DNA from: Mesorhizobium sp.
GTDB taxonomy: Bacteria; Pseudomonadota; Alphaproteobacteria; Rhizobiales; Rhizobiaceae
DNA length: 64,000 nt
Direction: 5' to 3'
NCBI GenBank assembly: GCA_004017535.1
Contig: SAJS01000001.1
Coordinates: 248,001 to 312,000 of the forward strand
Below are positions 23,970 through 42,141 of the stretch, in pieces. The position numbers and the translations under genes are program-made. A model generated the notes under the pieces. It ran no database searches and was not told the DNA's origin. It worked only from the letters and a program-made list of their open reading frames with translations. The stretch's first letter is position 1; each line of letters opens with the position of its first letter.

Positions 23970-24000
23970 GTTTAGCTGCTCCTGCAAACGTGAGCGCCAA

Positions 24001-24159
24001 GGCACCTCCCTCTGGCCTGCCGGCCATCTCCCCTGCAAGGGGGGAGATCAGCAGTTCACGCGGCGCCTGTCTGCCGACGTTGGCGATTGGCGAAGCCCCC
24101 GATGATATCCAATCTCCCCCCTTGCGGGGGAAATGCCCGGCAGGGCAGAGGGGGGTGCC
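24001..24159. repeat. Intergenic palindromic element, family A copy 2
   Basis: Arms 24001-24048 and 24112-24159 (48 bases) are inverted copies with a handful of mismatches. Arms and interior (GGCGATTGGCGAA, CCAATCTCC) match copy 3 at 43364-43524, and the arms match copy 1. It separates the binding-protein gene from livH inside an otherwise continuous operon, so it will be transcribed and form a long hairpin that may reduce permease expression. Confidence 0.82.
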
Positions 24160-24180
24160 TCGCGCATCCGTTCGCGTGTA

Positions 24181-27587: not shown

Positions 27588-29036
27588 TCAGAAAAACAAA
27601 AACCCGGCAATCAGAAACGTCGGGATCAGCACAAGGCCGGACCATGCCATGTAGCCGAAGAAGCCCGGCATCTTGAAGCCGCGATGCCTGGCGATGGCGA
27701 AGACCATGAAGTTCGGCGCGTTGCCGATATAGGTGTTGGCGCCCATGAACACCGCGCCGGCCGAGATCGCGGCCAGCGTCGAGGCTGCCTCAGTCATCAG
27801 GTGCTGGGCATCGCCGCCGGCGAGCTCGAAGAACACCAGATAGGTCGGGGCGTTGTCAAGGAAGGAAGACAGCGCGCCGGTCAGCCAGAAATAGGCGAGA
27901 TCGTTGGGCTGGCCGTCAGACGACGTGACAAGTGCCACCAGCGGCGCCAGCGCGCCGTCATGGCCGGCCCGCAGGATGGCGATGACCGGCACTATGCAGA
28001 TGAAGATGCCGGCAAACAATTTCGCCACCTCGGCGATCGGCCCCCAGGTGAAGCCGTTGGCCTCGCGGTGGCTCTTGTACGAGACCTTCAGCGACAGGAA
28101 GGCCAGCACCAGGATGACGGCGTCGCGCACCAGGTTCTGGAGCCCCAAGCCGACGCCGAGAACCGGGATGCTGACGCCCGGCTTCCAGCTCGCCGAAAGC
28201 AGGATCGCGCCGATCACGCCGGCGAGCAGCGGCAGGTTGGCCAGCCCGCGCAGGCGCACCTTTGTGTCGGGTGTCGGATCCTTGATCTTGGGCATGCCAG
28301 CCTCACGGCGGTGCAGGATGATGTCGATCGCGAGAAAGACAGCCAACACCAGGCCGCCGACGAAGAGCGTGTCGGGCAGGATGTGCACCGTCGTCCAGAA
28401 GAAATCGACGCCGCGCAGAAAGCCGACGAACAGCGGCGGGTCGCCGAGCGGCGTCAGTGAGCCGCCGATGTTGGAGACCAGGAAGATGAAGAAGATGACC
28501 ACATGGGCATTGAACGGCCGGTTGTCGTTGGCGCGCAGCATCGGCCGGATCAGGATCATCGAGGCGCCGGTCGTGCCGATGACCGAGGCAAGCAGCGCGC
28601 CAATGAGCAGCAACCCGGCATTGGTGAGCGGCGTGCCATGGATGTTGCCGGCAAGCAGGATGCCGCCCGAGATGGTGTAGAGCGCGAACAACAGGATGAT
28701 GAAGGACATGTATTCGGTGAGCAGCGTGTGCAGCACGGCCTCGCCTGCCGTCGGAATGCCGAAAGCGACGGCAAGCGGGACCACCGCCAGCGCCGCCCAG
28801 CCGGCGGCGATCTTGCCGTAATGATGTTCCCACAGGTGATGAAAGAGCAGCGGTCCGGTCGCGATCGACAAGAGCAGGCCGGCAAAGGGCAGTCCCCACC
28901 AGAGCGACATGGCGGCCCCGGGCAATTCGTGGATTTCGGCGGCGAAAGCCGATTCCGGACAGCCGAGAATGAGTGCGGCAGCCATGCCTGCCGCCAGCAC
29001 TTTTGCAAATGTTGTGAAGCCCCGTCGCTGCCTCAC
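27588..29036 (-). CDS. NhaD/ArsB-type sodium:proton antiporter
   Basis: 482 residues from GTG at 29036, seven bases after the pncA stop. The N-terminus has a signal-like segment (KVLAAGMAAALILGCPESAFA). About eleven to twelve membrane helices follow, with ion-transporter family motifs VSNIGGSLTPLGDPPLFVGF (about residues 200-220), FLDNAPTYLVFFEL and MGANTYIGNAPNFMVF. The paired N-G-D/N-A-P motifs in two halves place it in the ion transporter superfamily with NhaD and ArsB. It may balance Na+/H+ during uptake. A role in the catabolic cluster is only suggested by its coupling to pncA. The GTG start has a poor Shine-Dalgarno. Confidence 0.8.
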   Translation of the reverse strand: MRQRRGFTTFAKVLAAGMAAALILGCPESAFAAEIHELPGAAMSLWWGLPFAGLLLSIATGPLLFHHLWEHHYGKIAAGWAALAVVPLAVAFGIPTAGEAVLHTLLTEYMSFIILLFALYTISGGILLAGNIHGTPLTNAGLLLIGALLASVIGTTGASMILIRPMLRANDNRPFNAHVVIFFIFLVSNIGGSLTPLGDPPLFVGFLRGVDFFWTTVHILPDTLFVGGLVLAVFLAIDIILHRREAGMPKIKDPTPDTKVRLRGLANLPLLAGVIGAILLSASWKPGVSIPVLGVGLGLQNLVRDAVILVLAFLSLKVSYKSHREANGFTWGPIAEVAKLFAGIFICIVPVIAILRAGHDGALAPLVALVTSSDGQPNDLAYFWLTGALSSFLDNAPTYLVFFELAGGDAQHLMTEAASTLAAISAGAVFMGANTYIGNAPNFMVFAIARHRGFKMPGFFGYMAWSGLVLIPTFLIAGFLFF

Positions 29037-29043
29037 CGTGGCG

Positions 29044-29658
29044 TCAATCCGCCGAGTGATCTTCGAGCGTCACGCCGGCTTCGCGCATGCGCTTCAGCAT
29101 AGCCTCGACCGAGCCGTTGAGGTCGATGCCGCGGCAGGCGTCGAGCCGGACCGTCGTCTTGAAACCCTGCTTCACCGCGTCGAGTGCGGAAAAGGCAACG
29201 CAGAAATCAGTGGCGAGCCCGACCAGCGTGATCGTGTCGATGCCGCGTTCCTTGAGATAGCCGCCAAGGCCGGTCGGTGTCTTATGGTCGTTCTCGAAGA
29301 ACGCCGAATAGGAGTCGATCGCCGTGCGGAACCCCTTGCGGAGCACCAGCTCGGCTTTGGTCCAGGCAAGCCCGGAATGGAAATCGGAACCGAGGCTGCC
29401 CTGGATGCAATGGTCCGGCCACAAGGTCTGCGGCCCATAGGGCATATCTATGGTTTCGAAGGGCTGTTTGCCCGGATGGCTGGAGGCGAAGCTCGAATGG
29501 CCGGCCGGGTGCCAGTCCTGCGTCAGGATCACGTGGTCGGTCCGCCGGATCAGGTCGTTGACCAAAGGCACGATCTCGTCGCCGCCTGCCACCGCCAGCG
29601 CGCCGCCTGGACAAAAATCGTTCTGCAGGTCGATGACGATCAGCGCTTCGTCGGCCAT
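29044..29658 (-). CDS. pncA: Nicotinamidase/pyrazinamidase
   Basis: 204 residues from the ATG at 29658, with GAGGAAAG upstream. Catalytic triad Asp10 (VIDLQNDF), Lys108 (LRKGF) and Cys153 (ATDFCVAFSALD), and metal ligands Asp48 and His50 (TQDWHP) and His83 (PDHC), all match characterised PncA. It deamidates nicotinamide to nicotinate in the cytoplasm. It is divergent from the Mo-hydroxylase operon across a 302-base region holding a near-palindromic operator-like site, so both may be induced together: nicotinamide would be fed as nicotinate into that pathway or, through PncB, into NAD. Confidence 0.92.
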   Translation of the reverse strand: MADEALIVIDLQNDFCPGGALAVAGGDEIVPLVNDLIRRTDHVILTQDWHPAGHSSFASSHPGKQPFETIDMPYGPQTLWPDHCIQGSLGSDFHSGLAWTKAELVLRKGFRTAIDSYSAFFENDHKTPTGLGGYLKERGIDTITLVGLATDFCVAFSALDAVKQGFKTTVRLDACRGIDLNGSVEAMLKRMREAGVTLEDHSAD

Positions 29659-29960
29659 GCGGCTTTCCTCTCGTTTAGGCCCCTTCGTATCGGCCTGAGG
29701 CTCCAGTCCAAAGCCGCTGACGCGACCGGACACGGAACCTTGACCAGATGGGCGGCGGCGTCAACCTCCGGCACCATAACAATCGCGTTCAGGTCTTTGC
29801 CGCGCCAACTCCGGCTTTGACAATTCCGACCGGCCTGATATCATTTGCATACGAATGAATTTGACCGGTCTGGATACCGGCGGAAAGTCCCAGGGCAAGG
29901 CGCTTTGGGCGGGCCAATCGGGGACGGCTCGTTTTCTGGGAAGGTTCTGGAAGGCAGAGC
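29659..29960. promoter_or_regulatory. Divergent control region with near-palindrome TCATTTGCATACGAATGA
   Basis: This 302-base spacer separates pncA from the Mo-hydroxylase operon. At 29841-29858 lies an 18-base near-palindrome, TCATTTGCATACGAATGA, with two mismatched pairs. Its core matches TTTGTATACTAA at 41178-41189 in the HyuA/Fpr spacer and TTTGTACACATGCAA at 22576-22590. GGAAGG (29950-29955) serves as Shine-Dalgarno for the GTG at 29961. No ORF or RNA gene was seen in the rest. Confidence 0.55.
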
Positions 29961-30818
29961 GTGATCCGTTACGCGAAACCCACCAAGGTTGACGAGGCGC
30001 TCGCTCTGCTTGGCGAGGATCGCTGGCGCATTCTCGCCGGCGGCACCGATTTCTACCCCGCCCAGGGCGCAAAACCCTTCCGCGACAACATCCTCGACAT
30101 CAACGGCCTCGCCGACCTGCGCGGCGTCGAAGAGACGGACGAATGCTGGCGAATCGGTGCGCGAACGACGTGGACCGACATCGTGCGCCTGCCGCTCCCG
30201 CCCGCCTTCGACGCGCTGAAATCGGCCGCGCGCGAGGTCGGCTCGGTCCAGATCCAAAACGTCGCCTCGATTGCCGGCAATCTCTGCAACGCCTCGCCCG
30301 CCGCCGACGGCGTGCCGGCGCTGCTTGCGCTCGACGCCGATGTTGAATTGCGCTCGGCGAAAGCCATCCGCCATCTGCCGCTCGACGCGTTCATACTTGG
30401 CAATCGCCGCACGGCGCTGCAGCCGGGCGAGATGGTCACCGCCATCCGCGTGCCGAAGCGTTCCGCGGTCGGCAGCTCGGCCTTCGTCAAGCTCGGCGCC
30501 CGTCGCTATCTCGTCATCTCGATCGCCATGACTGCGGCGCGGCTTGTGGTCGAGAATGGCGTCGTCGCCGAAGCGGCGATCGCGGTCGGTTCCTGCTCGG
30601 CGGTCGCCCGCCGCCTCGCAGGCGTCGAGACGGTCCTGCGCGGGCATCGGATCGATGAGGGGCTTGCCGACGCGGTGCTGTCGGCGCCCATCGATGAATT
30701 GTCGCCGATCGCCGATGTGCGTGGCAGCGCCGAGTATCGGGAGCAAGCGGCGCGCGAGATCGTTGCGCGCGCGGTGCGTGCCGCAATCGGCGTCGACCAA
30801 GACAAGGTGGCCGCATGA
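29961..30818 (+). CDS. FAD-binding subunit of a xanthine dehydrogenase-family enzyme
   Basis: 285 residues from GTG. FAD-binding motifs are ILAGGTDFYP (about residues 30-39) and VQIQNVASIAGNLCNASPAAD (about residues 97-117, shown in part by the conserved GGN/AGN loop), followed by a CO-dehydrogenase flavoprotein C-terminal domain (about 175-285). It passes electrons from the Fe-S domain of the next gene product to an acceptor. It is the first gene of a six-gene operon in which every junction overlaps. The next gene starts within its stop (ATGA). Confidence 0.87.
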   Translation: MIRYAKPTKVDEALALLGEDRWRILAGGTDFYPAQGAKPFRDNILDINGLADLRGVEETDECWRIGARTTWTDIVRLPLPPAFDALKSAAREVGSVQIQNVASIAGNLCNASPAADGVPALLALDADVELRSAKAIRHLPLDAFILGNRRTALQPGEMVTAIRVPKRSAVGSSAFVKLGARRYLVISIAMTAARLVVENGVVAEAAIAVGSCSAVARRLAGVETVLRGHRIDEGLADAVLSAPIDELSPIADVRGSAEYREQAAREIVARAVRAAIGVDQDKVAA

Positions 30819-33598
30819 GCATGGTCCGACCCGGCATGGCCCAATCCGGCATCGAGCGCGCCGACATTGCTTTCGAGGTCAACGGCGCCGCCGTCCGGGT
30901 ATCCGTGCCGCCGGTGCGGCGCCTGTCGCAGGTGTTGCGCGACGAGTTGCGGCTGACCGGCACCAAGGTCGGCTGCGATGCCGGCGATTGCGGCGCCTGC
31001 ACGGTGCTGGTCGACGGCGATCCGGTCTGCGCCTGCCTGGTGCCTGCGGCCTCGGTGCTAGGGGCTTCCGTCACCACGGTCGAGGGCCTTGCCAATGGCA
31101 GGCTCTCCGCCCTCCAGGCCTCCTTCCTCGAACATGGCGCCGCGCAATGCGGCATCTGCACGCCCGGCCTGCTGGTCGCGGCCACCGCGCTTTTGGAGCG
31201 CAATCCCACCCCCAGCGAAGCCGAGACGCAGGAGGCGCTGGGCGGCGTGCTCTGCCGCTGCACCGGCTATCGAAAAATCGTCGCGGCGGTGATGCAAGCC
31301 TCGCGGCATATGAACGGCATAGACCTTCGCCTCCCGGACGTGGGCCACGCGGTCGGCGCCTCGCCGATCCGGCTCGACGGCGTGCCGAAGGTCAATGGCA
31401 CCGAGAAATTCGGCGGTGACTCCTTTCCTGCCGATGCGCTGTCGGTGCTGGTGGTCCGCTCGCCGCATTATCATGCTCGTTTCAGCTTCGGCGATCTCGA
31501 TGCCTGGGTCAAAGCGCATCCCGGCATCGCCGGTGTTTTCACCGCCGCGGATATTCCCGGCAGGAACTGCTTCGGCGTCATCGGCCCCTTTGCCGACCAG
31601 CCGGCGCTGGCCGAAGGCTTTGTCCGCCTGCGCGGCGAGGCTGTGGCGCTGGTGGCGGGAGAGCGTGAGGCAATCCTCGATCTCGACCTGACGGATTTTC
31701 CGATCACCTGGACCGAGCTGCCGCACGTGCTGCAGCCGCGCGAGGCGAAGGCTGAAGGCGCCGCGCTGATCCACGGCCACCGCCCGGCGAACCTGCTTAC
31801 CTCCGGCTATGTCGAGCGCGGCGATCCCGACGGCGCGCTCGCGGGCGCGACGGTCACGGCCTCCGGCGCCATCGAAACCTCTTTCGTCGAGCACGCCTAT
31901 ATCGAGCCGGAAGCCGGCTACGCCTACATGGATGGGGACACGCTGGTCGTCGTCGCCTGCACGCAGGCGCCTTATATGGACCGCGACGACACCGCCAAGG
32001 TGCTCGGGCTTCCCGTCGAGAAGGTCCGCATCGTGCCGACCGCCACTGGCGGCGGCTTCGGCTCGAAGCTCGATGTCTCGCTGCAGCCGCTCATCGGCCT
32101 TGTGGCGATGAAGACCGGGCGGCCGGCGGCGCTTGCCTACACCCGCAATGAATCGATGATGTCGACCACCAAACGCCATCCCGCCGAAATGAAGGCGACC
32201 ATCGGCGCCGATGCCGATGGCCGCATCACCGGCATGGTGTTCGAGGGGGACTTCAACACCGGCGCTTATGCCAGCTGGGGGCCGACCGTCGCGAACCGCG
32301 TTCCGGTGCATGCCTCCGGCCCCTATGCCACGCCGAACTATCGCGCCACCGGCTACGCCATTCACACCAACGGCCCGATCGCCGGCGCCTTCCGCGGCTT
32401 CGGCGTGCCGCAGGCCACCATCATGCAGGAAACGCTCTATGACGAGCTCGCCGGCAAGCTCGGTATGGATCGGCTCGACTTCCGCCTGAAAAACTGCCTT
32501 CATAACGGATCCGAAACGGTGACCGGCCAGCGCCTGGAGTCGGGTGTCGGCATCGGTGAATGCCTGGAGCGGCTCGGGCCGCATTGGGCGCGCGCACTTG
32601 CCGAAGCCGAAGCTTTCAACGCCGCCGCCACGGGGAAAAAACGCGGCGTCGGCGTCGCCTCCTGCTGGTATGGCTGCGGCAACACCTCGCTGCCCAATCC
32701 CTCGACCATCAAGGTCGGCATCTCGGTCTCGGGCGACGTCGTGCTGCATCAGGGCGCGGTCGATATCGGCCAGGGCTCGAACACCGTCATCACCCAGATC
32801 TGCGCCGACGCGCTCGGCCTGCCGCTGGGCAAGTTCAAGCTGAAGAGCGCCGACACCGCCATCACGCCCGACGCCGGCAAGACATCCGCCTCGCGCCAGA
32901 CTTTTGTAACGGGCAAGGCGGCGGAGAAGGCAGGCCGCGCCTTGCGCGAAAAAATCCTGCGCTTCGCCAACGTCTCGGAACAGGCGACGATTGCGCTCGA
33001 CGGCGCGAACCTTTCCATTCGCGAAGGCGATGCCGCGCGGCGCATTGATCTGGCGGGGTTGAAGGCCGATGCCGACGGCCTGGTGTTCGTCGCGGAAGAA
33101 ACCTACGACCCGCCCACACTGCCGCTCGATGCCAAGGGACAAGGCAAACCTTACGCGGTCTATGGTTATGGCGCGCAGATCGCCGAGCTCGAGGTCGATC
33201 TCAAGCTGGGCACCGTGAAACTCATCAAGATCACCGCCGCGCACGATGTCGGCAGGGCAATCAACCCGGTGCTGGTCGAGGGCCAGATCGAGGGCGGCAT
33301 CGCGCAGGGCATCGGCATGGCGCTGATGGAGGAATACATCCCCGGCCGCACCGAGAACCTGCACGACTATCTCATCCCGACGATCGGCGACGTGCCGCCG
33401 GTGGAGCACATACTCGTCGAGGTTCCCGACCCCGAAGGACCCTTCGGCGCCAAGGGCCTGGGCGAGCATGTGCTGATCCCCACCGCGCCGGCGATCCTCA
33501 ACGCCATCCGCCATGCAACGGGCGTCCTGGTCACCAAGGTGCCGGCGACGCCGAGCCGCATCCTGGCGGCGATCCGCGAGAAGGAGGCGCGCCGATGA
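30815..33598 (+). CDS. Fused [2Fe-2S]/molybdopterin hydroxylase subunit (xanthine dehydrogenase family)
   Basis: 927 residues. Residues 1-165 form the two Fe-S domains: plant-type cluster Cys54, Cys59, Cys62, Cys74, and second cluster Cys112, Cys115, Cys147, Cys149. Residues about 185-927 are the molybdopterin domain: TATGGGFGSKLDV, GAFRGFGVPQATIMQE, and the putative catalytic Glu884 in FGAKGLGEHVL. Such enzymes insert an oxygen from water next to a ring nitrogen or oxidise aldehydes. The Fe-S domain fused ahead of the Mo domain with a separate FAD subunit is less common than three separate subunits. Next to a 6-hydroxynicotinate reductase-like gene and nicotinamidase, a nicotinate-type hydroxylase is the leading hypothesis. 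The substrate is unproven. Confidence 0.85.
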   Translation: MSMVRPGMAQSGIERADIAFEVNGAAVRVSVPPVRRLSQVLRDELRLTGTKVGCDAGDCGACTVLVDGDPVCACLVPAASVLGASVTTVEGLANGRLSALQASFLEHGAAQCGICTPGLLVAATALLERNPTPSEAETQEALGGVLCRCTGYRKIVAAVMQASRHMNGIDLRLPDVGHAVGASPIRLDGVPKVNGTEKFGGDSFPADALSVLVVRSPHYHARFSFGDLDAWVKAHPGIAGVFTAADIPGRNCFGVIGPFADQPALAEGFVRLRGEAVALVAGEREAILDLDLTDFPITWTELPHVLQPREAKAEGAALIHGHRPANLLTSGYVERGDPDGALAGATVTASGAIETSFVEHAYIEPEAGYAYMDGDTLVVVACTQAPYMDRDDTAKVLGLPVEKVRIVPTATGGGFGSKLDVSLQPLIGLVAMKTGRPAALAYTRNESMMSTTKRHPAEMKATIGADADGRITGMVFEGDFNTGAYASWGPTVANRVPVHASGPYATPNYRATGYAIHTNGPIAGAFRGFGVPQATIMQETLYDELAGKLGMDRLDFRLKNCLHNGSETVTGQRLESGVGIGECLERLGPHWARALAEAEAFNAAATGKKRGVGVASCWYGCGNTSLPNPSTIKVGISVSGDVVLHQGAVDIGQGSNTVITQICADALGLPLGKFKLKSADTAITPDAGKTSASRQTFVTGKAAEKAGRALREKILRFANVSEQATIALDGANLSIREGDAARRIDLAGLKADADGLVFVAEETYDPPTLPLDAKGQGKPYAVYGYGAQIAELEVDLKLGTVKLIKITAAHDVGRAINPVLVEGQIEGGIAQGIGMALMEEYIPGRTENLHDYLIPTIGDVPPVEHILVEVPDPEGPFGAKGLGEHVLIPTAPAILNAIRHATGVLVTKVPATPSRILAAIREKEARR

Positions 33599-35136
33599 GC
33601 GAGCTTGCCGAACGTTTCGAAACCCATGACCCCGGCGAGAAGCAGGTGGCGGAGAAGATCCGCTGCGATGCCTGCCCGGTCATGTGCTACATCGCCGACG
33701 GCCGCACCGGCGCCTGCGACCGCTACGGCAATGTCGGCGGCCGCATCGTGCGCATGGATCCGCTGACCATTCTCGACCATGCCGCCGAGACCGGCGGCGC
33801 GGTCGTGCCTTTCGTTGCCGAGGGCGAGGCCTGGAACGGCGAGCTGGTCAACACCGGAAGGCGCTTCGTCACCGCGATCGGCGCCGGAACCACCTATCCG
33901 GACTACAAGCCGGCGCCCTTCATTGTCAGCCAGGAGGTCGAGGGCGTCGATCTCGTCACTGTCGTCACCGAAGGGATATTCTCCTACTGCGGCGTCAAGG
34001 TGAAGATCGACACCGACCGCCATATCGGCGACGAGACGGCAATCGTGCGCTCGCAAGGCGAGGCGATCGGCCATGTCACCACAGGCGAATACGGCTCGCA
34101 GATGCTGTCGCTCGGCGGCGTCCATCATTTGACCGGCGGCTCCAAGCAGGAAGGCCGCGCCACTTGCGACGCGCTGCTTAACCTCTGCAACCGCAAGCCG
34201 GTCGAGCTCACCATCGACGGCGGCGCCACCGTGATCGTCGAAGCCGGCAAACCGCCGGTCATCGACGGAAAGGTCGAGCACCGCATGCGCGTCGGCTGCG
34301 GCTCGGCCACCATCGGCATGTTCGCCACGCAATGGCGCGGGCTGGTCGACGAGGTGGTGGTGGTCGACGACCACATCACCGGCGTCGTCTCGGAGCATCA
34401 GGCCGGCAAGGTGCTGGGCTGGGAAGACACCGGCATAAAGATCATCGGCCGCCGTTCGACGCCGGGCCGTTATTTCAAGGTGTCTGAGCCCGGCCTCGGC
34501 TGGGGCGGCACGACGATTTCCGACCCGCTGTCGATCCTCGGCGACTGGAACGTCAAGAAGGGCGCGCGCCCCGGCCTGTCGCTGCTGATGGTGTCGACCA
34601 CCGGCGAGCAGTTCGCCTATTACGAACTCGACGACGAGCTGAAGCCGGTACAAAAACCGTTTCCGGAGCGGCTGCAGAAGTCGGTCGGCCTGATCGAAGA
34701 CAATTGCGAGCCGGCTTTGTGCACCGTGCTGTTCGTCGGCGGCGCCGGCGGCTCGCTGCGCGCCGGCGTCACCGAAAACCCGGTCAACCTCACCCGCTCT
34801 GTTCAGGGCCTGAAGACCTACGTGACGGTGGGCGGCGCGCCGGTCTATGTCTGGCCGGGCGGCGGCATCACGCTCATGGTCGACGTCACCCGCGTGCCGG
34901 AAGGCGCCTTCGGCTATGTGCCGACGCCGGCTCTGGTCGCGCCGATCGAGTTCACCATGCGCCGCGATGACTATGTCCGGCTCGGCGGCTATGAGAATGA
35001 GATCCGCAGCGTCGAGGATATCCTCGCCAAGGGCGGTGAGTATCTCAACCCGCGCCGTGGCACCGGGGCGCCGGTCAACAACCCCTGGCCGCCGCTGGCG
35101 CAGCTGCGGCGCGCGGCGGCAAACGGTGCCGGCTGA
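33595..35136 (+). CDS. 6-hydroxynicotinate reductase-like protein
   Basis: 513 residues, coupled by ATGA to the upstream gene. It resembles the ferredoxin-dependent 6-hydroxynicotinate reductase (Hnr) of clostridial nicotinate fermentation, as recalled from family knowledge. An N-terminal Cys cluster Cys24, Cys27, Cys31, Cys41 (CDACPVMCYI, then RTGACDR) suggests an Fe-S centre. Further Cys occur in YCGVKV, VGCGSATIG and NCEPALC. Inside the cluster, DGRTGAC (residues 35-41) resembles the Asp-x-x-Thr-Gly-Ala-Thr/Ser signal for covalent flavin attachment. The expected reaction is reduction of the 6-hydroxypyridine ring to the 1,4,5,6-tetrahydro-6-oxo form. Homologues in aerobes are often annotated this way without proof. 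Confidence 0.7.
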   Translation: MSELAERFETHDPGEKQVAEKIRCDACPVMCYIADGRTGACDRYGNVGGRIVRMDPLTILDHAAETGGAVVPFVAEGEAWNGELVNTGRRFVTAIGAGTTYPDYKPAPFIVSQEVEGVDLVTVVTEGIFSYCGVKVKIDTDRHIGDETAIVRSQGEAIGHVTTGEYGSQMLSLGGVHHLTGGSKQEGRATCDALLNLCNRKPVELTIDGGATVIVEAGKPPVIDGKVEHRMRVGCGSATIGMFATQWRGLVDEVVVVDDHITGVVSEHQAGKVLGWEDTGIKIIGRRSTPGRYFKVSEPGLGWGGTTISDPLSILGDWNVKKGARPGLSLLMVSTTGEQFAYYELDDELKPVQKPFPERLQKSVGLIEDNCEPALCTVLFVGGAGGSLRAGVTENPVNLTRSVQGLKTYVTVGGAPVYVWPGGGITLMVDVTRVPEGAFGYVPTPALVAPIEFTMRRDDYVRLGGYENEIRSVEDILAKGGEYLNPRRGTGAPVNNPWPPLAQLRRAAANGAG

Positions 35137-36020
35137 TGAACGGCCCGCAGGCGCATTGGCTTGCCGACGGCCGACGGCTCCATCTCAACCATGGGCCGAT
35201 CGATCTCATTATCGAAGCCTTCGGCTCTGACGACGAGCGTCGCGCCGCCTACCAGCAGGCGGTCACGCGCTTCCAGACGGTCCTGATCGAGTTGGTCGAG
35301 GAGCTGCCCGAGTTGCGCCTGCCAGCCTTCTTCCTGGCGCCGCGCGATTTCGCCGGCCCGACGGCGCGCCGCATGGAAGCGGCCGTCATGCCGCTGGCGG
35401 AATGCTTCATCACGCCGATGGCCGCCGTTGCCGGTTCGGTAGCCGACGAAATTCTTGCCGCGATGCTCGCCGGCCGCCGGCTCGACCGCGCTTACGTCAA
35501 CAATGGCGGCGATTGCGCCCTCTATCTCGGCAGGGACCAGTCGATGACGGTGGCGATTGCCGGCACCGGCAATGGCATAGCCGATCGCGTCGGCATCCGC
35601 GCCGAGGATGGCGTGCGCGGTGTTGCCACCAGCGGCTGGCGCGGCCGCTCGTTTTCGTTCGGCATCGCCGATGCCGTCACCGTTCTCGCGCCGACCGGCG
35701 CCGAGGCCGATGCGGCGGCGACGCTGATTGCCAACGCCGTCGACCTGCCCGGTCACCCTGCCATCGCGCGCGTGCCGGCGCGCGACCTTGCGCCCGACAG
35801 CGATCTCGGAGAGCAACTGGTGACGCGGAGCGTCGGCGCGCTTTCGCCGGGTGACATTGCCCGGGCGCTGGACAAGGGCCTCGCCGTCGCCGAAGATTTT
35901 CGCCGGCGCGGCCTGGTCGCCGCCTCGGCGCTGTTTCTGGCGGGCGAGGCCCGCATCAGCGGCGCGATAGCGCTCGCTGCGCCCAACAAGCATGCACAGG
36001 AGGAATTTGCCGATGCCTGA
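35136..36020 (+). CDS. UPF0280 family protein (ApbE-like superfamily)
   Basis: 294 residues. It starts on the last base of the previous stop (TGATG). Conserved family spellings include MAAVAGSVADEILAAM (about residues 94-109), YVNNGGDCALYL and GVATSGWRGRSFSFGIADAV. UPF0280 is grouped structurally with the ApbE flavin-transferase superfamily, and its function is unknown. Its place directly after a reductase carrying a flavinylation-like motif suggests it could mature that enzyme. That is inference only. It overlaps the next gene by eight bases. Confidence 0.8.
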   Translation: MNGPQAHWLADGRRLHLNHGPIDLIIEAFGSDDERRAAYQQAVTRFQTVLIELVEELPELRLPAFFLAPRDFAGPTARRMEAAVMPLAECFITPMAAVAGSVADEILAAMLAGRRLDRAYVNNGGDCALYLGRDQSMTVAIAGTGNGIADRVGIRAEDGVRGVATSGWRGRSFSFGIADAVTVLAPTGAEADAAATLIANAVDLPGHPAIARVPARDLAPDSDLGEQLVTRSVGALSPGDIARALDKGLAVAEDFRRRGLVAASALFLAGEARISGAIALAAPNKHAQEEFADA

Positions 36021-36597
36021 GTTTCCGATCCGCAAGGTCGCGGTGCTGACCGAGGAGATTTTCCACGACGGCGGGCCCGTCGCCCAACAGCCGCGCCTTC
36101 GCGCGGCGGCTCTCGCAGTGGTCAAGAACCCTTTCGCCGGCCGTTATGTGGAAGAGCTGCAGGGCGCGATGGAGGACTTGAAGCCGCTGGGCCTTCTGCT
36201 CTCCGACAGGCTGATTGCGGCGCTCGGCGGCGACGTGAAGAAGATCGACGGCTATGGCAAGGGCGCCATCGTCGGCACGGCAGGAGAGCTTGAGCACGGC
36301 GCTCTGTGGCACGTGCCTGGCGGCTACGCCATGCGCGAGCGGCTCGGCGACGCCAAGGCGATCGTGCCCTCGGCCAAGAAGGTCGGCGCTTTCGGCTCGA
36401 GGCTCGACGTGCCGCTCGGCCACATCAACGCCGCCTATGTGCGCAGCCATTTCGATGCCATGGAGGTCGGCATCAGCGACGGCCCGCGCCCCGACGAGAT
36501 CCTGTTTTGCCTCGCCATGACCTGCGGCCCGCGCGTCCACAACCGCATGGGCGGGCTGGCGGCCGAGGACATCAAGGCATGGGATGGCCTCAGGTGA
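36013..36597 (+). CDS. AA_synth (DUF1185, PF06684) family protein
   Basis: 194 residues from the ATG at 36013, with AGGAGGA upstream (35998-36004). The frame from 35992 is open but lacks a Shine-Dalgarno. Typical spellings are VLTEEIFHDGGP (residues 11-22), GKGAIVGTAGELEHGALWHV and LGHINAAYVRSHFDAMEVG. The family has a variant of the Bacillus chorismate-mutase-like fold and no settled reaction. It often sits beside UPF0280 and reductase genes. In this operon a role in ring-opening or isomerisation of the reduced heterocycle is possible. It overlaps marR by GTGA. Confidence 0.8.
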   Translation: MPEFPIRKVAVLTEEIFHDGGPVAQQPRLRAAALAVVKNPFAGRYVEELQGAMEDLKPLGLLLSDRLIAALGGDVKKIDGYGKGAIVGTAGELEHGALWHVPGGYAMRERLGDAKAIVPSAKKVGAFGSRLDVPLGHINAAYVRSHFDAMEVGISDGPRPDEILFCLAMTCGPRVHNRMGGLAAEDIKAWDGLR

Positions 36598-37055
36598 GCG
36601 GCGAGGACAATCTGCTGCGGCTGGTCGAGGCTGAAGACGGCGACGAGAACAACTACCATCTGCAGGATCAGGTCGGCTTCATCCTGCGCAAGGCGCATCA
36701 GCGCCATGTCTCGATCTTCGCTTCGCAAATCGGCGACCTGACGCCGCCGCAATTCGCCGCTTTGGCCAAGCTCTACGACATCGGCGAGACCTCGCAGAAC
36801 CAGCTGGGAACGCTCATCGCCATGGACGCCGCCACTGTGAAAGGCGTCATCGACCGGCTGAAAGCGCGGGGGCTGGTCGAGGTCTCCAAGCACGAGGTCG
36901 ACAAAAGGCGGCTGCTGGTCAATCTGACGCCGGAAGGCCGCGAGGCGATCGAGCGGCTGATCCCACTTGCCCGCGCCATCACCGAGGAAACGCTGGCGCC
37001 GCTGACGGCGAAGGAGGCCGCGACGTTTTTGCGGCTGCTGGCGAAGCTGGCGTAA
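36594..37055 (+). CDS. MarR-family repressor, NicR/BpsR-like
   Basis: 153 residues from a GTG that overlaps the preceding stop by four bases. Winged-helix features include LTPPQFAALAKLYDIGETSQ, recognition helix MDAATVKGVIDRLKARGLVE and wing HEVDKRRLLVNLT (about residues 38-110). The SQNQLG...MDAAT.KGV.DRL spelling is like that of MarR proteins that control nicotinate degradation in Pseudomonas (NicR) and Bordetella (BpsR), which respond to 6-hydroxynicotinate. Being last in the operon it probably regulates, it would give autoregulation. The likely targets are the TTTGyAyAC near-palindromes at 22576, 29841 and 41178. Confidence 0.8.
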   Translation: MSGEDNLLRLVEAEDGDENNYHLQDQVGFILRKAHQRHVSIFASQIGDLTPPQFAALAKLYDIGETSQNQLGTLIAMDAATVKGVIDRLKARGLVEVSKHEVDKRRLLVNLTPEGREAIERLIPLARAITEETLAPLTAKEAATFLRLLAKLA

Positions 37056-37090
37056 CTCCAGCGGGCTCGATTTGGCGGAGTCCCCCCAAC

Positions 37091-37275
37091 GTCGTCATCC
37101 CTGGGCGTAGCGACCCGAAGCGGAGCGAAGACCCAAGGATCCATGCCGTGATTTCGCGCGAAGAGTGCGGCGGTGCAGAATTCCGCACCGTGAGCGGCGC
37201 TGCTCTGTAATGGCATGGATCCTATGGTCTGCGCTGCGTCGCTTCGCTCCTTGCTCCGCCACAGGATGACGAAGC
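37091..37275. repeat. Nested-palindrome intergenic element, family D copy 1
   Basis: A dispersed element of about 185 bases whose ends are GTCGTCATCC and GGATGACGA. Inside are an inverted pair around GGATCCATGCCGTGA and its complement-like GGCATGGATCC, and a near-palindromic centre CGGTGCAGAATTCCGCACCG (37171-37190). A second copy lies at 59011-59172. The stretch TCTGCGCTGCGTCGCTTCGC before the right end is nearly identical in both copies. It fills the spacer between convergent marR and hyuB. Confidence 0.8.
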
Positions 37276-37332
37276 GATACGCATTGCGGCCAATCTCCAA
37301 ACCGCCTGATCCAGCGACACAAGCAGCGCGCT

Positions 37333-39021
37333 CTACAAATCCACCCCGAACATCTCCCTGGCCTGCTCGGCCGTGTAGTACCCAAGCCTGACATCGTCGG
37401 CGACCTGCTTCGGGTCCCGCTCGCGCGGATCGCCGTAACCGCCGCCGCCCGGCGTGCCTACGCGCACGCGGTCGCCGGCCTTGAGCGCGATGTCCTGTTC
37501 CTTGGAAAGATGCGGCGGCACATGCGCCTCGCCGCCCCGGAAGACGGTCACGCTGTTCGGCGCGCCGTCCTTGCCGCCGAGCGCGCCCTGCGGCCCGAAG
37601 CGGCCGTGATCCATGACGAAGGACGCGCGGGCCTCGCCGCGCAAGATCTCGACCTCATAGGCGAGCCCGAAGCCGCCGCGATGTTTTCCAGCGCCGCCGG
37701 AGCCCTCGCGCAGCGCGTAATGCCGGTAGAGCACCGGAAAAGCCTGCTCCATGATCTCCACCGGCGGCGACTTCGAAATGCCGATGGTCGAGCAGCCATT
37801 GCTCAAGCCGTCATGGCCGGCATTGCCGCCATACCCGCCGCCGGAGATCTGGTACATCACATAGTCGCGGCCGCGCGCCGGATCGTTGCCGCCGAGCGCG
37901 AAATTGCCGCTGGAGCCGGCGGGCGCCGCCGTCACCTTCTCCGGCAATGCCTGCACCATCGCCGCGAACACCGCCTCGGCGATGCGCTGCGATACCTCTG
38001 CCGCGCAGCCCGACACCGGGCGCGGATATTTTGCATCGAGGAACGTGCCCTCAGGCCGCCTGACGTTCAGCGGTTCGAACGCCCCGGCGCTGATCGGCAC
38101 CTCGGGGAAAATGTGGCGCATGGCGAGATAGACCGACGACAAGGTGGTAGCCAGCACGCTGTTCATCGGCCCGGCGCAGGGTTTCGACGAGCCAACGAAA
38201 TCGAAAGTCAGCGTATCGCCTTTCTTCTCGACGGCGAGATTGATGGTCAGCGGCTCGTTCACCACCCCATCGGAATCGACGAAGGCCTGCGAGCGATAGA
38301 TACCGTCGGGGATCACGGCGATCGAGGCGCGCATCTGCTCGGCGGCCCGGCGCCGCAGTTCCGCAATCGCCTCGACGACGGTTTCGCCACCGTAACGATC
38401 GAGGATTTCGTTGAGCCTGTCCTGGCCGATCAGCAGCGCCGCGGCCTGCGCTCGGATATCGCCGATCCGCTGGTCGGCGACGCGGATGTTCGAGCAGATG
38501 ATGGCGTAGATCTCGGGGTCGAGCACGCCCCTCTTGAACAGTTTCACCGGCGGCAGCCGCAACCCTTCCTGCTCGACCGCGGTGGCCGAGGCTGAAAAAC
38601 CGCCCGGGACCGAGCCGCCGATATCCGGCCAATGTCCAGTGTTGGACAGCCAGCAAAAGATCTTGCCGCCCCGATAGACCGGCATGACGAAGCGCACATC
38701 CATCAGATGCGTGCCGCCGAGATAGGGGTCGTTGACGATGTAGATGTCGCCGGGTTCGGGGGCCAGACAGCGGCCGTCGGCGATCATCTCGATCACCGTC
38801 CTGGTCGAATACTGCATCACGCCGACGAACACCGGCAGGCCCTGGCTGCCTTGCGCGATCAGTGAACCGTCGACCGCCGAATAGATGCCGTCCGAGCGGT
38901 CATTGGCCTCGGCGATGACCGGCGAGAAAGCCGCGCGCGAGAAGGTCAGGTCCATCTCGTCGCAGACCTGCTGCAGGGCCGCCTGCAGCACCGAAAGCGT
39001 GATCGTGTCGAGCGTGCTCAT
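37333..39021 (-). CDS. hyuB: Hydantoinase B/oxoprolinase family subunit
   Basis: 562 residues from the ATG at 39021, one base after the hyuA stop. An upstream extension to 39132 antisense-reads the hyuA end and is rejected. HyuB spellings are AEANDRSDGIYSAVDGSLIA (about residues 37-56), IVNDPYLGGTHLMDV and the glycine-rich tail RVGTPGGGGYGDPRERDP. With HyuA it forms an ATP-dependent cyclic-amide hydrolase of the N-methylhydantoinase/5-oxoprolinase/acetophenone carboxylase family. In this cluster it could open a lactam ring such as tetrahydro-6-oxonicotinate, replacing the enamidase of the anaerobic pathway. Confidence 0.87.
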   Translation of the reverse strand: MSTLDTITLSVLQAALQQVCDEMDLTFSRAAFSPVIAEANDRSDGIYSAVDGSLIAQGSQGLPVFVGVMQYSTRTVIEMIADGRCLAPEPGDIYIVNDPYLGGTHLMDVRFVMPVYRGGKIFCWLSNTGHWPDIGGSVPGGFSASATAVEQEGLRLPPVKLFKRGVLDPEIYAIICSNIRVADQRIGDIRAQAAALLIGQDRLNEILDRYGGETVVEAIAELRRRAAEQMRASIAVIPDGIYRSQAFVDSDGVVNEPLTINLAVEKKGDTLTFDFVGSSKPCAGPMNSVLATTLSSVYLAMRHIFPEVPISAGAFEPLNVRRPEGTFLDAKYPRPVSGCAAEVSQRIAEAVFAAMVQALPEKVTAAPAGSSGNFALGGNDPARGRDYVMYQISGGGYGGNAGHDGLSNGCSTIGISKSPPVEIMEQAFPVLYRHYALREGSGGAGKHRGGFGLAYEVEILRGEARASFVMDHGRFGPQGALGGKDGAPNSVTVFRGGEAHVPPHLSKEQDIALKAGDRVRVGTPGGGGYGDPRERDPKQVADDVRLGYYTAEQAREMFGVDL

Positions 39022-39022
39022 C

Positions 39023-41095
39023 TCAGGCCTCGCCGATGTCGATAATGATGTTGCCGTCCGCATCCGAGCGCGCCCGGTCGCCGGGTTCGAGCACCGTGGT
39101 GGCGTCCATCTGCTCCAGGATAGCCGGCCCATCGATCACGGCATCGAGCGGCAGCTTTTCGCGGGCATAGACCGGCGTTTCGTGCCAGGTGCCGTGATAC
39201 CAGACCGGGCGGATCTCGCGCCGCGCCTCCTCGAGCGTCGCCGCGCGGCCCGCGGGGTCGATCAGCCGCGACAGGTCGATTTGCGGTCGTACCCCGGTGA
39301 CCGACGTGTTGAGGTTGACGAGGTTGGCGCGGATTTCCGGCAACTCGACCTTGAAGCGGGCGAAATAAGCCTTCTCGAACAAGTGCTGCAGCGTTTCTCG
39401 TGAAACCGAAGAGGAGGGCAGCGGCACGTTGATGATATGCGTCTGGCCGACGAACTGCATGTCGGCGGAATGCGTCACGCGGATCGCGTCCGGCTTCACC
39501 GCTTCCTTGGCGATCAGCGCCTCGCCTTCGTAACGGTGCCGTTCCAATACCTTGCGAAGCGCAGCTTCGTCGAGCAGCTTCACCGGCTGGTTGATCGTGT
39601 TGACGAAGTCGTGCCGCAAATCCGCGACGACGCAGCCGAGCGCATTGGTGATGCCCGGGCGCGCGGGTACCAGCACGCGCGGCAGGCCGAGCTCGCGGGC
39701 AAGCGCCGTCGCATGCAGTGGCCCGGCGCCGCCGAAGGCGAACAGCGCGAAATCGCGCGGGTCGTGACCGCGCGAGACCGACACCATGCGGATCGCGCCG
39801 GCCATCTTCATGTTGCCGAGCCTGAGCACGGCGCCGGCTGCTTCAACGCCGGAAAGGCCGGTGCGCTTGCCGATCTTGTCCTCGAAAATGCCGGTGACGC
39901 GCTCGACGGTGACCGGATTGTCGACCGCGAGCAGCTTTTTCGGCGCCAGGCGGCCGAGCACCAGATTGGCGTCGGTGATGGTCGGCTCCTCGCCGCCGCG
40001 CCCGTAGCAGATCGGGCCGGGATTGGCGCCGGCACTTTCCGGGCCGATCTGGATCAGCCCGGCCGCATCGACGCGCGCGATCGAGCCGCCGCCGGCGCCG
40101 ACCGTATGCACCGCCACCATCGGTACATGGATCGGCATCGCATATTCGATCTCGATCTCGTTCGACACGGCGGGCTCGGCATTGCGGATCAGCGCCACAT
40201 CGGTCGAGGTGCCGCCCATGTCGTAGGTGACCAGATTGCCGAAGCCGGCGCGCTTGCCCGTATAGGCGGCGGCGATGACGCCGGAAGCCGGGCCGGACAT
40301 CACCGTTTTGGCCGATTCCAGCGTGACGAAGCGCGCCGAGATCATGCCGCCATTGCCGTTCATGATCAGGAAGTCGCGGGCGTAGCCCTTTGCCGCCAGC
40401 TCCTTGCGCAGCCGTTCGACATAACGCTCCAGGATCGGCTGCACCGAGGCGTTGACCGCCGCCGTCACGCCTCGTTCGAACTCGCGCGCTTCCGACAGCA
40501 GCGCATGTCCGGTGGTGATGTGCCCGTTTGGCCAAAGCTCCGCCGCGATCTCGGCCGCGCGCCGCTCATGCGACGGGTTGGCGTAGGAGTGCAGGAAGTG
40601 GATGACGAGCGACTCGCAGCCGGCGTCGAGCAGCTTCTTCACCGCATCGCGCATCTCGGCTTCATCGAGCGCAATGCGTACCGCGCCCGAAGCCTCGATC
40701 CGCTCCGACACTTCGAGCCGAAGGTCGCGGGGAATGACGGGGACAAAAGTGCCGGTCATGCCATAGGCCTGCGGCCTGGTGCGGCGGCCAAGCTCGATCA
40801 CGTCGCGAAAGCCGCGCGTGGTGATCATGCCGGTCCGCGCCAGGCGACGCTCCAGCACGGCGTTGGTGGTAGTCGTCGTGCCATGCACGATGAGGTCGAT
40901 GCCGTCGATCGGAAAGCCGGTGGCGCCAAGCGCGGCGACCACGCCGAAGGCCTGGTTTTCCACCGTGGTCGGCGTCTTGGCGATATGCACCTTGCCGCCT
41001 GCCTTGCCGTCGATCAAAAGCAGGTCGGTGAAGGTCCCGCCGACATCGATGCCTGCGACAACATTTCCCGCCGACGCCGAAAATTTCTCATCCAT
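39023..41095 (-). CDS. hyuA: Hydantoinase A/oxoprolinase family subunit
   Basis: 690 residues from the ATG at 41095. An ATG at 41128 in frame would add 11 residues, and neither start has a strong Shine-Dalgarno. The N-terminal ATPase motif VAGIDVGGTFTDLLLIDGKA (about residues 13-32) and later TYDMGGTSTDVALI and FGGAGPLHATALARELG are typical of HyuA. The subunit activates the cyclic amide with ATP. It is the first gene of a two-gene operon that diverges from fpr, with a TTTGTATACTAA site in the spacer. Confidence 0.88.
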   Translation of the reverse strand: MDEKFSASAGNVVAGIDVGGTFTDLLLIDGKAGGKVHIAKTPTTVENQAFGVVAALGATGFPIDGIDLIVHGTTTTTNAVLERRLARTGMITTRGFRDVIELGRRTRPQAYGMTGTFVPVIPRDLRLEVSERIEASGAVRIALDEAEMRDAVKKLLDAGCESLVIHFLHSYANPSHERRAAEIAAELWPNGHITTGHALLSEAREFERGVTAAVNASVQPILERYVERLRKELAAKGYARDFLIMNGNGGMISARFVTLESAKTVMSGPASGVIAAAYTGKRAGFGNLVTYDMGGTSTDVALIRNAEPAVSNEIEIEYAMPIHVPMVAVHTVGAGGGSIARVDAAGLIQIGPESAGANPGPICYGRGGEEPTITDANLVLGRLAPKKLLAVDNPVTVERVTGIFEDKIGKRTGLSGVEAAGAVLRLGNMKMAGAIRMVSVSRGHDPRDFALFAFGGAGPLHATALARELGLPRVLVPARPGITNALGCVVADLRHDFVNTINQPVKLLDEAALRKVLERHRYEGEALIAKEAVKPDAIRVTHSADMQFVGQTHIINVPLPSSSVSRETLQHLFEKAYFARFKVELPEIRANLVNLNTSVTGVRPQIDLSRLIDPAGRAATLEEARREIRPVWYHGTWHETPVYAREKLPLDAVIDGPAILEQMDATTVLEPGDRARSDADGNIIIDIGEA

Positions 41096-41177
41096 TGTCG
41101 AAACCCGAAATGCTAAAACTACGGACATGTCCCAGTTTGGAAAGGCGTTTTACGCCTCGATCTTGACCGCAAGATCG

Positions 41178-41189
41178 TTTGTATACTAA
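41178..41189. promoter_or_regulatory. Operator-like palindrome TTTGTATACTAA in the hyuA-fpr spacer
   Basis: TTTGTATACTAA at 41178-41189 is a palindrome with one mismatched pair. It lies 82 bases upstream of the chosen hyuA start and 125 bases before fpr. The core recurs at 29841-29858 and, weaker, at 22576-22590. It fits a dimeric winged-helix regulator. The MarR protein encoded in the neighbouring operon is the best candidate. Confidence 0.55.
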
Positions 41190-41313
41190 TAACTTTCCAA
41201 CACAAGGGCCTACTGTTGGCAGTGTGCGGTAAGCGCGTCGGAACCGACCGTTCGGAGGCGCAGAGAGCAATTTGGCGCCAGGGCCTCGCGTCTGGGCCGG
41301 AAAGTTGGGTTTG

Positions 41314-42141
41314 ATGAACACGACATCCGCGTTGAACACCGCCGGCGCAAGGCCGCTGCAGTTCCCGATCCCGGCCAATGTCTACGCCGAGACGGTGGTG
41401 TCGGTGAAGCATTACACCGACCGGCTCTTCTCGTTCCGCATTACCCGCCCGCAGTCGCTGCGCTTCCGCTCCGGCGAGTTCGTCATGATCGGCTTGCCCA
41501 ATGCCGAGAAGCCGATCTTCCGCGCCTACTCGGTCGCCAGCCCCGCCTGGGACGACGAGCTGGAATTCTTCTCGATCAAGGTGCCGGACGGCCCGCTCAC
41601 TTCCGAGCTGCAGAAGATCCAGGTCGGCGACACCATCATCATGCGCAAGAAGGCGACCGGCACGCTGGTGCTCGACGCACTGACGCCCGCCAAGCGCCTG
41701 TTCATGATCTCGACCGGCACCGGCATCGCGCCTTTCGCCAGCCTGCTGCGCGATCCCGACACCTATGAGAAGTTCGACCAGGTGATCCTCACCCACACCT
41801 GCCGCGACATTGCCGAGCTCACTTACGGCCAGGAACTGGTGGCGGCGCTCGAAAGCGATCCTCTGATCGGCGAGCTGACCGCCGGCCGCGTCACGCTCTA
41901 CAATTCGACGACGCGCGAGGAATCGGCTCGCATGGGCCGCATCACCGCGCTGATCGGCTCGGGCAAGTTCTATTCGGATCTCGGCATCGAGAAGCTCAAT
42001 TCCGAGACCGACCGCATCATGATCTGCGGCTCGATGCATATGCTGAAGGACGTCAAGGAACTCGCCGAAAGCCTCGGCTTCCAGGAGGGCTCCTTGAGCA
42101 ATCCAGCGAGCTTCGTCGTCGAGCGCGCCTTCGTCGGCTGA
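41314..42141 (+). CDS. fpr: Ferredoxin-NADP+ reductase
   Basis: 275 residues from the ATG at 41314. A TTG at 41272 is possible but adds a non-conserved leader. FAD-binding RxYS is in FRAYSVASPAWDD (about residues 70-82), the NADP loop is FMISTGTGIAPFASLLRD, and the C-terminal CGSMHMLKDVKEL and final VERAFVG match the subclass of bacterial FPRs. It transfers electrons between NADPH and ferredoxin or flavodoxin. Divergent placement next to hyuA and a possible shared operator suggest it could supply reduced ferredoxin to the 6-hydroxynicotinate reductase-like enzyme. A general housekeeping role is the alternative. Confidence 0.92.
   Translation: MNTTSALNTAGARPLQFPIPANVYAETVVSVKHYTDRLFSFRITRPQSLRFRSGEFVMIGLPNAEKPIFRAYSVASPAWDDELEFFSIKVPDGPLTSELQKIQVGDTIIMRKKATGTLVLDALTPAKRLFMISTGTGIAPFASLLRDPDTYEKFDQVILTHTCRDIAELTYGQELVAALESDPLIGELTAGRVTLYNSTTREESARMGRITALIGSGKFYSDLGIEKLNSETDRIMICGSMHMLKDVKELAESLGFQEGSLSNPASFVVERAFVG

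Follow-up and report, generated by a model that had tools for sequence, protein, structure and literature searches.

In Eubacterium barkeri, a molybdenum (Mo) hydroxylase and 6-hydroxynicotinate reductase (Hnr) reportedly yield 1,4,5,6-tetrahydro-6-oxonicotinate (THON), and a B12-dependent fermentation is said to follow later. In the accessible part of PMC9304392, THON is described as being opened hydrolytically in both E. barkeri and Azorhizobium, in E. barkeri by a bifunctional enamidase. A 2012 study (PMC3511419) reported that Azorhizobium, Bradyrhizobium, Rhodopseudomonas and strain SG-6C share a conserved nicotinate cluster. As far as the available text of that study goes, the cluster comprises Hnr, an importer, genes for the initial three steps and two conserved proteins of unknown function; its Hnr shares 42% identity with that of E. 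barkeri, and in growth experiments Bradyrhizobiaceae SG-6C, which carries the Hnr cluster, breaks down both nicotinate and 6-hydroxynicotinate. Our guess is that the two unknown proteins are UPF0280 and AA_synth. Here, we analyze a related locus in a 64,000-nucleotide stretch of Mesorhizobium sp. (GCA_004017535.1, contig SAJS01000001.1, positions 248,001 to 312,000; hereafter, the window), where a hyuA-hyuB pair adjoins an Hnr operon and would take the place of enamidase.

The operon consists of six plus-strand genes, from 29961 to 37055, whose neighbors overlap by 1-29 bases with the starts used. They encode the FAD subunit of a Mo hydroxylase (29961-30818; Pfam FAD_binding_5, 140.4 bits, and CO_deh_flav_C, 58.5 bits); a fused 2Fe-2S and Mo-cofactor subunit, the predicted nicotinate 6-hydroxylase (30815-33598; MoCoBD_1/2, Fer2 and Fer2_2); the 6-hydroxynicotinate reductase-like protein, Hnr (33595-35136; 57-70% identity to 26 plasmid-borne relatives); a UPF0280/COG2122 protein (35136-36020; NF003322, 393.2 bits versus a cut-off of 290); an AA_synth (PF06684) protein (35992-36597; 234 bits); and a MarR-family regulator, the predicted operator binder (36594-37055; MarR, 47.6 bits). 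Convergent to the operon, on the minus strand, lie hyuB, for the predicted metal-binding, ring-opening subunit of an ATP-dependent lactamase (37333-39018; Hydantoinase_B, 529.8 bits), and hyuA, for its predicted ATP-dependent activating subunit (39023-41128; Hydantoinase_A, 297 bits). Divergent from hyuA is fpr, on the plus strand, encoding a ferredoxin-NADP reductase-like protein (41272-42141; NF008178, 140.9 bits, below the cut-off of 390). The initial annotation had described this overlapping operon, with hyuA/hyuB convergent to it and fpr adjoining, and the open reading frames and domain matches agree. It had also counted pncA as an operon member, which is wrong: this nicotinamidase gene (29044-29658; NCBIfam NF008623, 218.9 bits versus a cut-off of 174) is a minus-strand gene that diverges from the operon at a distance of about 300 bp.

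We consider it probable that the locus serves an aerobic, reductive catabolism of nicotinate, in which HyuAB opens THON in place of enamidase. PncA would convert nicotinamide to nicotinate, the Mo hydroxylase would convert nicotinate to 6-hydroxynicotinate, and Hnr, fed by ferredoxin and Fpr, would reduce the latter to THON. HyuAB, at the expense of ATP, would then open the six-membered THON lactam, which is the task of enamidase in the relatives, and the enamine product would release ammonia to give 2-formylglutarate. The exchange of HyuAB for enamidase had been proposed in the initial annotation, and three lines of evidence lend it weight: the alternation of the two enzymes in 93 genomes, the spread of the HyuAB type over three Hnr clades, and a shared operator.

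Alternation of HyuA and enamidase in Hnr-bearing genomes

We searched 199 genomes drawn evenly from the order Rhizobiales, with Hnr present in 48 and absent from 151. In this order set, HyuA was counted as being of the window's type at 58% identity or more; HyuA proteins of about 50% identity (six genomes) and one of 43-47% were treated as separate groups. Window-type HyuA was found in 18 of the 199 genomes, i.e., in 17 of the 48 with Hnr versus 1 of the 151 without. In the sole Hnr-negative genome with window-type HyuA (G185), about 70 bases separate UPF0280 from the end of its contig, which stops just where the MarR and Hnr genes would be expected from the relatives.

Near many Hnr clusters without HyuAB lies a gene for an amidohydrolase (c14) whose best match in the PDB is the E. 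barkeri enamidase 2VUN (47% identity over 378 aligned residues, E 2.4e-108). With the identity threshold set at 71% and a fragment in G072 not counted, this enamidase occurs in 29 of the 48 Hnr-positive and 3 of the 151 Hnr-negative order genomes; the window's own genome has no enamidase match at E <= 1e-40. Both ring-opening enzymes are present in one Hnr-positive genome of the order set (G098) and neither is present in three (G032, G064 and G159), where G032 is a fragmented genome of 770 contigs. A second set comprised 47 Hnr-positive genomes: 23 new ones from 398 Pseudomonadota, and 24 from 80 named loci, these 24 being mostly outside Mesorhizobium. HyuA at 61% identity or more was found in 32 of them (in G581 as a fragment), enamidase at 62% or more in 17, both in two and neither in none. 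After the removal of two second-set duplicates with identical contig coordinates (G588 = G079 and G593 = G452), there are 93 distinct Hnr-positive genomes, among which HyuA is present in 48, enamidase in 45, both in three, neither in three, and exactly one of them in 87. Hence, HyuA and enamidase are near-complete alternatives in this sample. In the three genomes with both (G098, G305 and G373), the enamidase gene belongs to a different cluster, where two AA_synth genes, a MarR gene and genes of the Liv type accompany it, and no Hnr, UPF0280 or Mo hydroxylase gene was seen in the stretch viewed around it.

The Hnr tree was built from 73 proteins (the window and 72 loci, omitting the Hnr fragments of G133 and G183, the duplicate L153 and most named Mesorhizobium loci). 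HyuAB-type rows fall into three separate, well supported clades. The first has 12 rows, including one enamidase genome (G181, 86% complete) and one genome with both enzymes; the second consists of Pleomorphomonas and Neorhizobium; the third has 24 rows, from Mesorhizobium, Rhodobacterales and others. In members of all three clades, hyuAB is found near Hnr. In the HyuA tree, which omits nine loci (L087-L091, L093, L095, L101 and L162), the proteins of the three clades are on one side of a branch versus the 50% and 30% groups, with weak support (76). Nine order genomes (L070-L073 and L075-L079) have hyuA-hyuB first, then FAD-MoFeS-Hnr-MarR-UPF0280 on the same strand, and AA_synth ends the series except in L071. 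On a Pleomorphomonas plasmid the order is Hnr-UPF0280-AA_synth-hyuA-hyuB, with annotations reading hypothetical and acetophenone carboxylase, and on a Neorhizobium plasmid hnr and UPF0280 are accompanied by two AA_synth genes and by hyuA and hyuB; fpr and nicB are close by.

A wider survey covered 129 Hnr-bearing loci (45 from the order set and 84 named records, many of them close relatives), with up to about 10 kb fetched on either side of Hnr. The fetched stretches contain UPF0280 in 122 loci, AA_synth in 104, a fused Mo subunit in 100 and a MarR gene in 98; the grouping of genes around Hnr is more than chance. An fpr-like gene is found in 36 of the 129 loci, and in three loci (L038, L079 and L173) a 2-oxoacid:ferredoxin oxidoreductase pair, with POR and TPP domains in L038, adjoins the pathway genes; such neighbors fit a ferredoxin-dependent Hnr. 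As a separate observation, Hnr is broken into two adjacent matches in L182 (G212).

Operators, active site and alternative readings

The Hnr operon is preceded by a sigma-70-like promoter, TTGACA-16-TATCAT, recognized by eye at 29817-29844 on the plus strand (TTGACA at 29817 and TATCAT at 29839), in a region that is conserved in aligned Mesorhizobium rows. A putative palindromic operator, TCATTTGCATACGAATGA, overlaps its -10 box (29841-29858), and an alignment of eight Mesorhizobium rows shows no variation in the core of the palindrome. Even when three mismatches are allowed, TCATTTGCATACGAATGA occurs a single time in the window, and none is expected by chance. A second putative operator, the looser copy TCGTTTGTATACTAATAA, lies between hyuA and fpr (41175-41192). 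Exact matches to the pattern TCRTTTGYATACKAATRA, which was derived from these two sites and from their variants in Mesorhizobium, number just two in the whole 6.86-Mb genome, namely the sites at 29841 and 41175; one further match has two mismatches. Three other genomes (G069, G105 and G136) also have two exact matches each, at the promoters of the Hnr operon and of hyuA/fpr; in G069 and G136, hyuA/fpr is about 75 and 100 kb from Hnr, and the operator site is kept. G069 has an additional site with two mismatches, and a single match, in G105, was obtained with the reversed pattern that served as a control. A third palindrome, TCATTTGAATACAAATAA (two mismatches, L187-L190), has identical letters in the four Mesorhizobium genomes searched; it was dropped as a regulon site because it stands in two different gene contexts.

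Outside Mesorhizobium, with up to two mismatches, the motif reaches, in the DNA upstream of mapped cluster genes, 35 times the density that it has in the rest of the loci (73 sites in 239,477 bp versus 16 in 1,836,281 bp), an enrichment that is partly circular because the symmetrical consensus was picked after viewing the sites. In these loci, which are related and in which divergent genes can share one site, it precedes the FAD gene in 25 of 66 cases, Hnr in 16 of 103, fpr in 10 of 26, hyuA in 8 of 27, enamidase in 9 of 23, pncA in 11 of 21, MarR in 8 of 69 and livK in 3 of 30; no site was found before UPF0280 (0/99), AA_synth (0/84) or hyuB (0/27). The presence of the same motif at hyuAB and at enamidase in different genomes fits the two enzymes filling one slot. 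A MarR-type repressor, probably the one encoded in the operon, would control the Hnr operon and hyuAB/fpr through this one palindromic operator.

These results bear on the alternative that HyuAB acts on some other cyclic amide, such as 5-oxoproline, hydantoin or another lactam, and merely adjoins the nicotinate operon. The family is broad, the window's genome has three further HyuB genes of about 28-31% identity, HyuA and HyuB score below the cut-offs of named families, and the fetched stretches of 19 out of 31 named Mesorhizobium loci lack hyuAB, some of them being cut short by contig ends. Against this stand the near restriction of window-type HyuA to Hnr-positive genomes, its alternation with enamidase, and the Hnr operator at hyuA even when the two are unlinked. 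We regard this alternative as improbable, although it survives better than the other two.

The second alternative leaves the steps unchanged and replaces the substrate by another N-heteroaromatic acid, e.g., a substituted nicotinate. Among the 26 plasmid relatives of Hnr, 17 are annotated as 6-hydroxynicotinate reductase, three as hypothetical, and six are unannotated there; the closest named match of the window's Hnr is from Mesorhizobium sp. ORS3359 (99% identity), and the cysteine motif C24-x2-C27-x3-C31-x9-C41 is invariant across the Hnr alignment. No Pfam or NCBIfam model names the protein (there is one sub-threshold Pfam match), no PDB sequence matches it, and a profile search for solved relatives gave none (best E 0.39). 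A Mo hydroxylase with FAD, 2Fe-2S and Mo domains does adjoin Hnr, as the pathway would have it. Its substrate could hardly be read from sequence alone: an aldehyde oxidoreductase gives the best single-chain PDB match to the Mo subunit (423 bits), while the split chains of the E. barkeri nicotinate dehydrogenase score 279, 223 and 136 bits, and the FAD subunit has a xanthine dehydrogenase as its best PDB match, the FAD subunit of E. barkeri nicotinate dehydrogenase ranking sixth. The hydroxylase type also differs among Hnr clusters (fused, NicB-like or split in two genes), and two Hnr-positive genomes, G064 and G159, have neither ring-opening enzyme; all this leaves room for another acid. Conversely, pncA and a pncB-like gene stand beside the locus, and PMC3511419, in its accessible text, links an Hnr cluster to nicotinate breakdown. 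A different acid is, in our estimate, slightly less probable still.

By their paired Hydantoinase_A and Hydantoinase_B domains, HyuA and HyuB are members of the ATP-dependent lactamase family. The best solved relatives are 7HK5 for HyuA and 6YRA, a caprolactamase, for HyuB. The metal ligands of CapB are Asp41, His99, Asp102 and His124, according to the available part of PMC8453981; D40, H104, D107 and H129 of HyuB align with this tetrad and are invariant in 32 rows (the window and 31 of 32 relatives, taken at 80% coverage or more and without stops). Leu38, Tyr136, Met339 and Cys410-Cys411 of CapB correspond to Glu37, Phe141, Ser343 and Ser410-Thr411 of HyuB, and these pocket replacements are invariant in the same rows, which is consistent with a shared but different substrate. 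As for ring size, the accessible text of PMC11033972 describes ATP-dependent hydrolysis of the six-membered delta-valerolactam by OplAB, with 5-methylpiperidin-2-one converted well; in our own reading, the carboxylate of THON corresponds to ring position 5, as in the latter compound. The third alternative, in which HyuAB belongs to the pathway at another step, e.g., as an acetone-carboxylase-like carboxylase, and the ring is opened otherwise, draws on the acetone and acetophenone carboxylases of the same superfamily, on the Phe in place of the proposed catalytic Tyr of CapB, and on the second AA_synth paralog common beside enamidase, which among the hyuAB loci viewed is found only in L084, so that more than one gene changes together; it is the least probable of the three, as enamidase is precisely what HyuAB alternates with and its best matches among solved structures hydrolyze lactams or hydantoins.

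Several points weigh against the opening of THON by HyuAB as the preferred reading. G064 and G159 have Hnr and UPF0280 without window-type HyuA, enamidase or AA_synth, so that Hnr does not always imply the HyuAB-or-enamidase route. A more distant enamidase relative (40-44% identity), which was not counted, occurs in seven genomes (G004, G020, G038, G056, G092, G144 and G185) and comes near the E. barkeri enamidase (47%) in its identity to the query; G004 and G020 are Hnr-positive genomes of the HyuAB type, and with these two counted, five genomes have both enzymes and 85 exactly one. The exact tests on genome counts take no account of relatedness, and the two-state minimum on the Hnr tree is only four changes. 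To the partial circularity of the motif enrichment should be added that the motif is missing at many loci. The name Hnr rests on annotated relatives and on PMC3511419, and the Mo and FAD subunits are no closer to nicotinate dehydrogenase than to aldehyde and xanthine enzymes. Tyr136 of CapB is the sole obvious acid/base group in ring opening, as given in the accessible part of PMC8453981; it corresponds to Phe141 in HyuB, and Phe in all 32 rows, which speaks against a simple transfer of the CapB mechanism. The scores for the caprolactamase equivalogs NF050156 and NF050157 are 497.9 and 318.1 bits for HyuA and HyuB versus cut-offs of 1000; with scores so far under these cut-offs, the substrate is not readable from known members. 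In the available text of PMC11033972, OplAB did not accept a piperidone bearing a 3-ester, and lactams that are charged or unsaturated do not appear there. Finally, we found no enzyme assay or growth test of a HyuAB-type strain.

Still, we hold the opening of THON by HyuAB to be the probable reading. G064 and G159 carry a HyuA of 49-50% identity, and their loci (L067 and L066, respectively) may represent a third ring-opening route. By eye, without a family search, the L066 cluster was seen to include a cupin-like gene.

Accessory and neighboring genes

UPF0280 tracks Hnr almost perfectly. It is present in 47 of the 199 order genomes, i.e., in 46 of the 48 with Hnr and 1 of the 151 without (G185); in the two Hnr-positive genomes that miss it (G120 and G183), Hnr is at a contig end, and it is kept in genomes that have Hnr on a different contig or at a distance of 229 kb (G068, G135 and G181). 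This near-perfect co-occurrence, even when unlinked, suggests an obligate maturation or partner role, and UPF0280 as a partner of Hnr is well supported. The E. barkeri Hnr is said to carry a covalent flavin, and the attachment of flavin to Hnr by UPF0280 is a tempting idea. The sequences speak against a classical ApbE flavin transferase on three grounds. UPF0280 scores 14.7 bits with PF02424 versus a gathering threshold of 25.6; apart from H16, no His of UPF0280 is conserved at 95% (122 rows), and Arg171 occupies the stretch matched by eye to the ApbE catalytic site; and the acceptor motif D-x-x-[ST]-G-A-[ST], as given in the accessible text of PMC12052999, has as its best candidate in Hnr, by eye, DHITGV[LV], without A6 and S/T7. 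Hnr was also considered as a relative of DUF39 (PF01837), which was dropped, as PF01837 had no match in 150 Pseudomonadota genomes, including that of the window. We found no paper on a catabolic role of UPF0280 as an Hnr maturation factor.

AA_synth, at E <= 1e-30, is present in 44 of the 48 Hnr-positive versus 8 of the 151 Hnr-negative genomes, and there is a hint that it works with lactam ring opening. Enamidase-like genes were also seen beside AA_synth without Hnr (L167, L168 and L176), and the 40-44% enamidase relative is, by coordinates, beside AA_synth in four of its seven genomes (G004, G020, G056 and G092).

Upstream of pncA, the Liv-type importer that the initial annotation had placed at 22.7-27.5 kb is indeed present, as a plus-strand LivKHMGF-type ABC importer recognized from open reading frames, with Peripla_BP_6 for LivK (22665-27467); the acid uptake assigned to it is suggested by gene order, Liv-type genes being found beside Hnr in other clades too, and uptake of nicotinate is possible. 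A pncB-like gene for a nicotinate phosphoribosyltransferase, absent from the initial annotation, lies outside the operon on the plus strand (19569-20873; Pfam NAPRTase, 155.8 bits, and NAPRTase_N, 90.1 bits). Genes for pncA are near Hnr in 54 of the 129 loci and in 20 of the 95 outside Mesorhizobium. Between livF and pncA, on the minus strand, is a gene for a CitMHS_2 family transporter (27588-29036), with relatives in 30 of 34 Mesorhizobium Hnr loci versus 2 of the 95 others. Upstream of livK, 21091-22509 encodes a 472-aa protein with no Pfam match at E <= 1e-5, relatives of which are found in 14 of the 129 Hnr loci, mainly adjoining Liv genes.

Comparison with described systems

Under this proposal, HyuAB would open the ring in roughly half of the Hnr-positive genomes of the sample (48 of 93), in Mesorhizobium and roseobacters among others and, as judged from gene order, in a genome of the SAR116 cluster (L150). 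In three annotated plasmid records, hyuAB is labelled hydantoinase/oxoprolinase, N-methylhydantoinase or acetophenone carboxylase. At one and the same step, exchange between a metal amidohydrolase and an enzyme that spends ATP would have recurred. Tentatively, and with considerable doubt about the whole, we put forward a joint reading in which HyuAB and enamidase were swapped at least three times in alphaproteobacteria under the same operator motif, and UPF0280 is a dedicated maturation factor of Hnr; for example, a covalent flavin may be attached by a non-canonical, ApbE-like chemistry. A limited literature search did not find the exchange of HyuAB for enamidase in print.

Among described systems, the COG2122/DUF39 system is the nearest for UPF0280. 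COG2122 is required together with DUF39 for homocysteine synthesis in Desulfovibrio, and its similarity to ApbE seems not to reach the flavin-binding region, according to the accessible part of PMC5764234. In both cases, UPF0280/COG2122 is tied to a particular partner protein; the partner here, however, is Hnr, so that a protein whose chemistry is left unsettled in that text gains a second partner context, in easily grown bacteria. OplAB and CapAB share with HyuAB the two-subunit HyuA/HyuB architecture and the metal tetrad, and OplAB takes a six-membered lactam; HyuAB differs in scoring under the CapA/CapB equivalog cut-offs and in the changed pocket residues of CapB. E. barkeri differs in being an anaerobe, in opening the ring by enamidase (2VUN), and in having the Mo protein split in two subunits (3HRD). 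Closest are the clusters of SG-6C, Azorhizobium caulinodans, Bradyrhizobium japonicum and R. palustris HaA2, with which the window has in common an Hnr-like gene, the Mo hydroxylase, an ABC importer and a predicted reductive route via THON, as far as the accessible text of PMC3511419 describes them. The genes of the first three steps were recognized there by BLAST with E. barkeri genes, which we take to imply enamidase, whereas in the Mesorhizobium locus enamidase is absent and HyuAB is found instead. The Hnr-type nicotinate pathway is therefore already known from that work, and the substitution of HyuAB, here proposed for the opening of THON, is its sole new part.

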